Shown here: in pieces, positions 37,143-39,654 of the stretch
Layout: each line of letters begins with the position of its first letter
Numbering within the stretch: position 1 is the stretch's first letter
Assembly: GCF_018555685.1 (NCBI RefSeq)
Contig: NZ_JAFLWW010000010.1
Span: 62,001-126,000 of the forward strand
Source: Aminobacter anthyllidis
Lineage (GTDB): Bacteria > Pseudomonadota > Alphaproteobacteria > Rhizobiales > Rhizobiaceae
Direction: 5' to 3'
DNA length: 64,000 bases
Notes under the pieces: generated by a model
The model's database searches: none
What the model was told of the DNA's origin: nothing
The model's input: only the letters and a program-made list of their open reading frames with translations
Translations under genes and position numbers: made by a program

Positions 37143-37544
37143 CTATGGAGCCCATGTGATTGTCACGGCGTCGGCCGAACGGTTGGCTGGCCCGTGAAAC
37201 ACCGCTTCGATGTTGTTGCCGTCCGGGTCGAACAGGAAGGCCGCATAGTAGCCGGGGTGGTAGGCGCGCTCGCCGGGCCCGCCATTGTCCCTGCCGCCGG
37301 CGGCCAGCCCGGCCGCGTGAAACCGGTCGACCATGGCGCGATCGGCAGCCTGGAAAGCGACGTGGACGCGGCTTGGCTGCTCGCCCACGTCGACCCAGAG
37401 TTCGTCGGCGTAAAAATGCTCGCCGCCGTCGGTGACCTCTATGCCTAGGACGCCGAGCACCGCCATATAGAAGCGCTTGCTTGCCGCAAGATCGCGCGTG
37501 CGCAAATGCAAATGGTCGATGAGACGACCGCGTTTCAGTTCCAT
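37143..37544 (-). CDS. VOC (glyoxalase/bleomycin resistance) family protein
   Basis: 133-residue single-domain metalloenzyme or binding protein of the vicinal oxygen chelate superfamily. The fold pattern is LIDHLHLRTRDLAASKRFYMAVLGVLGIE at the N terminus (His metal ligand in DHLHL), VHVAFQAADRAMVDRFH in the centre and YYAAFLFDPDGNNIEAVFH at the C terminus, with the last Glu as metal ligand. ATG 37544 has GGAGGCAGGACC before it, a better start than 37565. The substrate is unknown. Its upstream leader overlaps a decayed copy of the gshB 3' end. Confidence 0.88.
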   Translation of the reverse strand: MELKRGRLIDHLHLRTRDLAASKRFYMAVLGVLGIEVTDGGEHFYADELWVDVGEQPSRVHVAFQAADRAMVDRFHAAGLAAGGRDNGGPGERAYHPGYYAAFLFDPDGNNIEAVFHGPANRSADAVTITWAP

Positions 37545-37558
37545 GGTCCTGCCTCCTT

Positions 37559-37654
37559 TGAACAATTGCTCTTCTCACCGCGTGCCAGAACAACGCCACG
37601 ATTGGTGACGCCGCCGGACTTGCCGGTCGGCGAGGTCAAGTTGATCTCGGTGAC
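37559..37654 (-). pseudogene. Degenerate copy of the gshB 3' end
   Basis: This stretch aligns with the true gshB 3' end at about 38710-38822, in the same orientation. Shared blocks are ACCGCG...CCAGAACA, GACGCCGCCGGACTT versus GGCGCCGCCGAACTT, and GCCGGTCGGCGAGGT followed by GTTGATCTCGGT. There are several substitutions, and about 15 bases are missing. It does not encode anything. The two copies flank the AT-rich gene at 37800-38708 as imperfect direct repeats, which suggests an insertion at the end of gshB. Confidence 0.75.
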
Positions 37655-37736
37655 TTTCTCTCAAGATGCTTAGTCTTGACTTTTAGAACAAATAGTGAAC
37701 GAATGCAAGTTCGTTGTGACCACCCCCAACGGTGCT

Positions 37737-37771
37737 GGATCAGACTCCACAACACAATCGAAGTCTGATCC
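37737..37771. promoter_or_regulatory. 10-base inverted repeat before the AT-rich gene
   Basis: GGATCAGACT (37737-37746) and AGTCTGATCC (37762-37771) are perfect inverted arms with a 15-base spacer, ending 28 bases before the start codon at 37800. It may be an operator or an RNA hairpin that controls the gene. Confidence 0.5.
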
Positions 37772-37799
37772 AATCAGCCAGCACTCTTGGGGGGATGAA

Positions 37800-38708
37800 A
37801 TGGAAATACAGATACCTTTTAGGGTCGAATACAAGACTGCTGGGGCCGTCCCAATACCAGAGATAGTTGGCAGCCTCTTGGCTCTTCAACGAGTATTAGA
37901 GGAGGCCGGGAAAAACCTTGAAAACTTCATCCCGGGTCTAACTGTCGAAAAGGTTGATGTTAGAGTTGAGGAGATTTCTCACGGTAGCTTGAAAGAGCTT
38001 CTGGTAGTGGGGCTTTTTGCCTTGTTTCAGGACGAGCTGCGAGAGGAGCTGCCCACTTTGGTGGAGCAATATACAGGCCACAGCGTTCCAGAAAGCGCCG
38101 AAACGCTTTTGGTCATACTTGCCCTTGTTGCCATAGTCTATGGTGCTGATTTTGTTCAGAAACTGGCGCTTGGCAAAGTGCACGATACGCCCACGAAGAT
38201 TTTCAAGAAGGCCCTCATTAGAGACCTAGCCGAACGAACTGGAAAGCCAGAGGCAGAAGTTAAGAAAATTCTCGACGAGCGTTATGGGGCCAAGACACGG
38301 ATAAAGCAGCTAGGGGACAGTGCAGTTAAGTTCTTTCTACCTAGCAAGCGGCAATCGAATGCGCCCATTAAGGTCAACGATGTAACAATAGATAGTCGAA
38401 CGGTGGCTGACGCGCCGAGTGACTATGTCTACGAAGGCACCATAGGAACAGAAAAATCCCAGCACCATGACGCTGTGCAATTGGAAATTCATGCACAAGA
38501 CCGAGATCGCGACGCGAGTGGTTGGGCAGCGATTCCACGCGGACTGCACCACAAGCGACTTAGGATGAAGCTAATGGATGCAGCGTCGCCTGAGCAACTG
38601 TGGGGTCACAATCTTGTCGTAGGAGATATTGTCCTGCTCTCCAAACGAGTTGGGTTGGACTTCGAGCCAGTCGAAATTCATCTGGTTCGAATACACGACA
38701 GAAACTAG
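37800..38708 (+). CDS. Unknown protein encoded by AT-rich inserted DNA at the gshB end
   Basis: 302-residue protein that I cannot assign to a family. Residues 1-70 form a compact domain (IPFRVEYKTAGAVPIPEIVG, then VEKVDVRVEEISHGSLKELL); residues 99-118 (SAETLLVILALVAIVYGADF) look like one membrane helix; a charged helical part and a beta-rich C-terminal half follow. ATG 37800 is preferred over GTG 37695 because GGGGGGAT lies 5-6 bases upstream. The base composition differs from the neighbours: by hand count 29 of 60 bases (37801-37860) are G or C, against 40 of 60 in gshB (38761-38820). The stop is 4 bases from the convergent gshB stop. It probably arrived by transfer. Confidence 0.75.
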   Translation: MEIQIPFRVEYKTAGAVPIPEIVGSLLALQRVLEEAGKNLENFIPGLTVEKVDVRVEEISHGSLKELLVVGLFALFQDELREELPTLVEQYTGHSVPESAETLLVILALVAIVYGADFVQKLALGKVHDTPTKIFKKALIRDLAERTGKPEAEVKKILDERYGAKTRIKQLGDSAVKFFLPSKRQSNAPIKVNDVTIDSRTVADAPSDYVYEGTIGTEKSQHHDAVQLEIHAQDRDRDASGWAAIPRGLHHKRLRMKLMDAASPEQLWGHNLVVGDIVLLSKRVGLDFEPVEIHLVRIHDRN

Positions 38709-38712
38709 TTGA

Positions 38713-39654
38713 TCAGTTCCGCTTGCTCTCCACCGCGTCCCAGAACAGTGCGGCGATGTCGGCGCCGCCGAACTTCTTGACCTCGCGGATGCCGGTCGGC
38801 GAGGTGACGTTGATCTCGGTCATGTAGTCGCCGATGACGTCGATGCCGACGAGGATGAAGCCGCGCTCGCGCAGCGACGGGCCGATGCGGGCGCAGATCT
38901 CGCGCTCGCGCTCGGTCAGCTCGGTCTTTTCGGCGCGGCCGCCGGCATGCATGTTGGAACGGGCGTCGTGCTCGGCCGGCACTCGGTTGATGGCGCCGAC
39001 GGGTTCGCCGTCGATCAGGATGATGCGCTTGTCGCCTTTGCGCACGTCCTTGAGGTAGCGCTGGACGATGTAGGGCTCGCGGAACAGCTGGCCGAACATT
39101 TCGAGCAGCGACGACAGGTTCCTGTCGGCCTCGTGCAGGTGGAAGATGCCGGCGCCGCCATTGCCGTAGAGCGGCTTGACGATGATGTCGCCGAACTCCT
39201 TGCGGAAGGCCGCGACTTCCTGCGGGTCCTTGGTGATCACCGTTTCCGGCATCAGGTCGGCGAATTCGGTGACGAAGATCTTTTCCGGGCTGTTGCGCAC
39301 CCAGGCCGGGTCGTTGACCACGAGCGTCTTCGGGTGGATGCGCTCCAGAATGTGGGTGGTGGTGATGTAGTTCATGTCGAAGGGCGGATCCTGGCGCAGC
39401 AGGATCACGTCCATTTCCGACAGGTCGGTGCGAATGGGCTCGCCCAAGGTGAAGTGGTCACCCTTGACGTCGCGCACCTCGAGTTTCTCGATACGCGCGA
39501 AAACCTTGCCGTCGCGCATCGACAGCCGGTCGGGCGTGTAGTGATAGAGCTCGTGGCCGCGCCGTTGCGCTTCCAGCGACAGCGCAAACGACGTGTCGCC
39601 GGCGATGTTGACGGTTGCGATGTGGTCCATCTGGACGGCGATCTTGAGGGCCAT
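38713..39654 (-). CDS. gshB: Glutathione synthase
   Basis: ATP-grasp ligase joining gamma-glutamylcysteine and glycine to glutathione in the cytoplasm. The 313-residue protein starts [20 protein letters not shown] and shows the family blocks [62 protein letters not shown] and [24 protein letters not shown]. The full 3' end is intact even though an AT-rich gene lies right beside it; a decayed second copy of this 3' end is 1.1 kb away. Confidence 0.97.

Follow-up and report, generated by a model that had tools for sequence, protein, structure and literature searches.

A gene of a phage protein family has entered the chromosome at the 3′ end of gshB, leaving gshB itself intact. The inserted gene lies between gshB and a VOC gene within the window, the whole stretch of 64,000 nucleotides that was analysed, and the features of this region are collected in Table 1. 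It forms a complete frame of 302 codons on the plus strand, running from an ATG at 37800 to a stop codon at 38706–38708. A sequence-only reading had singled out an AT-rich gene at 37800–38708, and both the frame and the low G+C content were confirmed: the gene has 49.8% G+C against 64.3% for the window, and a recount at 37801–37860, inside the gene, returned exactly the 29/60 reported before. The stop codon of gshB occupies 38713–38715 on the minus strand, so that the two genes are convergent and, in agreement with the earlier coordinates, the stop of the inserted gene is four bases from that of gshB.

Table 1. Features at the 3′ end of gshB, in window coordinates.
Feature	Position	Strand	Basis
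VOC (glyoxalase-family) gene, old neighbour of gshB	37143–37544	−	Pfam Glyoxalase E 1e-11 (scanned as 37146–37565); directly after gshB in G002 and G004
Decayed, displaced gshB 3′ end	37566–37651	−	Alignment to 38723–38820
Inserted DNA from the decayed end to the upstream inverted repeat	37652–37735	.	No counterpart in the other genus genomes or in plasmids
Inverted repeat with 11-bp arms (37736–37746 and 37762–37772); candidate operator or promoter element	37736–37772	+	
Inserted gene, PHROG_4506 family, 302 aa	37800–38708	+	
Codons 99–124, predicted membrane helix	38094–38171	+	AlphaFold2 model; hydropathy peak from residue 102
Codons ~218–298, predicted C-terminal small β-barrel with invariant A-x-D-x-D and W	38450–38696	+	
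gshB, intact, with its present 3′ end	38713–39654	−	Pfam GSH-S_ATP E 1.5e-73; 96–98% protein identity to eight genus relatives

The inserted gene is present in one of the ten genomes of the genus, this one, and is absent from the other nine. gshB was found in nine of the ten (the tenth, G007, is 81% complete), and each of the eight relatives that carry it has a single copy of the gshB-end core within the 5 kb analysed per locus. When a second gshB end was sought in 3,052 bases downstream in these relatives, the best score was 16–20, against 39 in this genome. The VOC gene lies 73 bp past the gshB stop codon in G002 and 65 bp past it in G004, an arrangement that constitutes an empty site. From the restriction of the gene to one of ten genomes, the single gshB end in the relatives and the empty sites, we conclude that the gene is an insertion. 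The sequence-only reading had looked to the gshB–VOC junction of related genomes for this outcome, with the gene absent and one gshB end remaining. The upstream flank of the gene (148 bases, 37652–37799) matched nothing in the other genomes of the genus (10 in the set), and window DNA from 37640 to 38720 matched nothing in plasmids.

On the VOC side of the insert, a diverged copy of the gshB 3′ end had previously been proposed at 37559–37654, in the same orientation as gshB. Alignment places it at 37566–37651, opposite 38723–38820, and is far above chance: 500 single-base shuffles reached at most 16, and other 160-base stretches of the window, searched on one strand, reached 25, against a relaxed local score of 39 here. 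Over the full alignment 81 bases are paired, 72 of them identically, and there are 20 gap positions; a 31-nt block (37621–37651 against 38790–38820) is 94% identical. The repeat covers the last ~100 bp of gshB and, judged by this alignment, represents a second gshB end that has decayed. Since it stands on the VOC side, we take it to be the displaced original end. Only 21 bases (37545–37565) separate it from the start of the VOC gene, compared with the 65–73 bp between gshB and VOC in the empty sites, indicating that DNA was also lost at the VOC side. The tail of the present gshB is 90.7–96.0% identical to the relatives and the rest of the gene 90.3–94.3%; these values do not distinguish the origin of the present end and lend no support to a foreign one. 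By comparison with the relatives, a mobile accessory gene, from a family carried by phages and transposons, entered at the 3′ end of gshB, and the old end was displaced and is decaying beside VOC.

Integration at a gene end would produce this geometry, and a one-off repair event fits it as well. A pattern search for the gshB-end core, allowing up to two mismatches, was run over 297 genomes of the bacterial family; it was used in place of a DNA search with the gshB tail, which scored at most two candidates per genome and was unfit for partial copies. The core was matched in 187 of the 297 genomes and doubled in this genome only, indicating that gshB is not a recurrent integration site. Of the integrated element that the sequence-only reading had envisaged, the foreign one-gene insert and the displaced end near VOC stand, whereas integration by an integrase is not established. 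An integrase-type element, or a CIME-like remnant of one, is a serious candidate that falls somewhat short of an even chance. By this route the crossover would lie ~100 bp inside gshB, the element would have carried a gshB end with it, and the integrase would have been lost or would have acted in trans. The two gene ends in the same orientation, where relatives have a single end, speak for it, as does the position of the best-kept 31-nt block at the inner end of the copy, with the decayed end towards VOC. However, although the genome contains 19 matches to tyrosine integrases and four to serine recombinases, none lies on this 219-kb contig, which agrees with the earlier remark that no integrase is present. 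The lack of any second case among the genomes searched and of any foreign trace in the present gshB end also count against such an element, and in the open-licence literature the match for gshB as an integration site concerns cyanobacteria. We give close to an even chance to the other route, a single repair or template-switch event that duplicated the gshB end and took up the gene, with no site-specific enzyme involved. This would be in keeping with the uniqueness of the doubled end and with the fact that neither element ends nor a recombinase were detected nearby, but a duplication confined to the end of a gene that stays intact is what gene-end integration produces by design.

The sequence-only reading had found no family for the encoded protein, and here it has to be corrected. 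PHROG_4506 matches the protein with E 8.1e-30 over residues 2–283 of 302 (profile positions 6–281 of 300), and in a wider alignment all 17 members match the same profile. By these profile matches the protein belongs to PHROG_4506, a phage protein family of unknown function. It has no match in Pfam, PADLOC or NCBIfam; 14 members searched against Pfam gave nothing better than E 0.011, and 17 members searched against PADLOC 2023 gave two weak matches, from one member each, the best being to MkoC (E 0.0078). In the open-licence literature on the PHROG_4506 family, IS1595 passengers, repressor-linked exclusion genes and gshB as an integration site, no description of the family was recognised. Seven residues are invariant in 14 members (L26, S63, A232, D234, D236, W242 and R253), and comparison with two close relatives gave pN of 0.12–0.16 and pS of 0.84–0.91, with synonymous sites saturated, indicating that the protein is under purifying selection. 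The family is sparse. A protein query found it in 3/297 genomes of the bacterial family, and profile searches found it in 5/397 genomes of the order and 9/398 of the phylum, this genome being included each time. The E. coli form is carried by 148 of 5426 complete E. coli genomes and is annotated as a hypothetical protein in the 20 rows listed.

AlphaFold2 models of the window protein (mean pLDDT 77) and of an E. coli member (mean pLDDT 84, pTM 0.68) both place a helix at the hydrophobic segment and end in a barrel of five strands, with a short helix before strand four, which is the order of an OB-fold; an N-terminal β-α-β-β-α domain is seen in the E. coli model only. The predicted layout is an α/β domain at the N-terminus, followed by a single membrane helix and, at the C-terminus, a small β-barrel. 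The C-terminal domain appears OB-like, going by strand order and weak matches. Hydropathy peaks of 2.09, 2.24 and 1.98 were obtained for three members, and a low peak of 1.27 for a Mu-like one. A search of solved structures with the window model returned nothing at E 0.001, and the three matches to the E. coli model (TM ~0.14) were not trusted for naming the fold, such that no solved structure convincingly matches either model.

With the insert protein as query, no relatives were found in viral contigs, nor in phages or plasmids at E 1e-5, and A6 likewise found none in viral contigs. More distant queries did find carriers: L032 matched four plasmid records, and L039, a Mu-like prophage member by reading of its neighbours, matched 16 of 50,697 phage records, 11 of them from Escherichia. 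In E. coli Lambda_ev203 an S24-type repressor is followed by the family gene and then by a region with a putative superinfection exclusion protein, Kil, Gam and an integrase, and another E. coli record has the same gene order. The family gene also comes after the repressor in a Pasteurella record; between the repressor and the family gene there are two small genes in Pseudomonas phage U9 and one in Pseudomonas phage D14C, and in the Leptolyngbya phage Lsp-JY19 it lies near lysis genes. Inspection of 22 viral loci (13 and 9, from two rounds) revealed a co-directional Peptidase_S24 repressor upstream, 49–645 bp away, in 12, and 10 were without one; the Pfam check covered only loci with a repressor-looking upstream frame, while the base of the count is all 22. 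From one set of 19 loci, seven were inspected and 12 left out. There is no repressor beside the window copy and no prophage around it.

We compared the identity of the family protein with that of the repressor in front of it across these carriers. L104, L114 and L117 share 94–97% identity in the family protein and 18–26% in the repressors. The protein of L119 is 100% identical to those of L120 and L121, with repressors at 22%, and L120 and L121 are again 100% identical to each other, with repressors at 63%. Accordingly, where the family protein is 94–100% identical, the repressors are 18–26% identical in five of six pairs, falling in two groups, and 63% in the sixth. Lower down the scale, L086, L087, L088 and L090 have 88–92% identity in the family protein and 22–60% in the repressors, and L092 and L093 have 82% and 29%. 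Near-identical genes therefore stand behind different repressors.

Transposons and islands also carry the family. In L018 (Mesorhizobium sp. B4-1-3), whose protein is 77% identical to the insert protein, and in L097 (one viral contig), the family gene is convergent with an IS1595 transposase, and both genes are bracketed by inverted repeats of the same type and flanked by 8-bp target duplications, CACTACCC and TCACTCTG, read from the sequence; in L097 the family gene and the transposase are both split. Adjoining transposases of the IS1595 type and the IS1 type were found in L033 and L034, respectively, although repeats bracketing both genes were not found in either. L032 has an integrase within 2 kb of the family gene, on an island, and integrase-like frames lie nearby in L042 and L044, by reading of the frames. 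Given that its closest named relative is the passenger of such a transposon, the window insert might be regarded as the remnant of an IS1595-type transposon. We consider this very improbable: the terminal repeat of L018 and L097, CGGATGTATCCCC, is missing from the window at up to two mismatches, there is no 8-bp duplication, no IS1595 transposase was found in the genome, and insertion of this type does not copy 100 bp.

Several further features of these loci were observed. An exact 18-mer, TAGCAAACGCACCAAGGG, lies just upstream of the family gene in L033 (9562–9579) and L035 (10000–10017), in otherwise unrelated surroundings, with a similar stretch upstream of the gene in L094, and may mark the terminus of another mobile element. 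A DUF4365 gene is directly upstream of the family member in L035 (10018–10476). In L044 (6928–12761, genome G173) the family gene is in two pieces, 5 kb apart, with two near-identical frames of 313 residues between them that we read as transposases. The transposase-linked copies of L018 (12035) and L034 (10326) adjoin, by reading, recA and a DNA polymerase III alpha-like frame; proximity to repair and replication genes is possibly chance.

The inverted repeat upstream of the window gene includes the 9-mer GACTCCACA (37743–37751), which also occurs upstream of the family gene in L018, L032, L035, L043, L044 and L083. It is positioned 37–38 or 57–59 bases before the start codon in seven of 20 upstream regions, where a hand calculation gives ~0.01 as expected by chance, and the proteins of the loci that bear it are as little as 27% identical. 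The 9-mer is likely to be a shared operator or promoter element. SOS control was considered and set aside: a GAAC-N7-GAAC site is present at 37686–37700, but the window has two such sites against 1.68 expected. A sigma-70 promoter scan of the region preceding the gene gave no plus-strand match.

A membrane-linked defence role is plausible, given the position of relatives behind phage repressors. We see an even chance that the insert is a mobile accessory gene of the lysogeny type whose role is to keep out other phages. In the many temperate phages where it stands behind the repressor, the family gene would be co-expressed with it in the lysogen; the soluble domain could sense a product made by the infecting phage, whereupon the membrane part could stop the infection or the infected cell. 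The benefit would be exclusion of other phages by a protein that acts alone. In this explanation, which we favour, the window copy would be such a gene, captured and kept outside any prophage. Against exclusion, no PADLOC model matches the insert protein, almost half of the viral loci have no repressor directly upstream, the Lsp-JY19 gene has lysis genes as neighbours, the window copy is outside any prophage, the hydropathy peak of the Mu-like member is low, and no solved structure is a convincing match. The protein might instead work for its carrier, phage or transposon, for example by maintaining lysogeny, by controlling the repressor or in membrane stress while the phage cycle runs, and give the host no protection. 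We regard this as unlikely, even if the lack of a match to any defence model, the hypothetical annotation of the E. coli copies and the occurrence of relatives in other phage contexts would suit it; the gene is swapped between phages of different immunity and yet stays behind the repressor, and it travels as the sole passenger of transposons and stands alone in the window.

If the function proposed under phage exclusion is confirmed, the gene of those 148 E. coli genomes would be a phage-exclusion gene, and a single exclusion protein would be exchanged among the repressor regions of prophages, transposons and a bare site in a chromosome. On a small scale, gshB illustrates how a core gene can receive an insert at its end and stay unbroken. 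The fullest form of this reading is an undescribed one-protein exclusion module that is swapped between the immunity regions of heteroimmune prophages, rides as the only passenger of IS1595-type transposons and forms, at gshB, a minimal one-gene element with no recombinase, whose entry left the target gene whole; we put this forward tentatively and think it doubtful in its entirety.

Among the closest known systems are rexAB of lambda and bstA of Salmonella BTP1, which PMC7067206 places at a site, between the repressor and N, that is common for accessory loci. Relatives of the insert gene occupy the position behind the repressor (cI in lambda) in 12 of the 22 viral loci. In contrast to Rex and BstA, exclusion by PHROG_4506 is putative, one protein is involved rather than the two of Rex, the members match neither the Rex nor the BstA family in Pfam or PADLOC, and the window copy has no repressor beside it. 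Tab, which has 83 residues and occupies another site (PMC10884400), was dropped as a counterpart. The window copy shares its sequence family with PHROG_4506 but is alone in a chromosome rather than in a phage. It lacks the repeats and the transposase of the IS1595-family passenger transposons, in which L018 and L097 hold the family gene and transposase between terminal repeats. From gene-end integrative elements and CIMEs it differs in comprising one gene, with no recombinase found and the gshB site not reused in the genomes searched, while it shares with them an insert between two copies of a gene end, an intact gene and an empty site in relatives.
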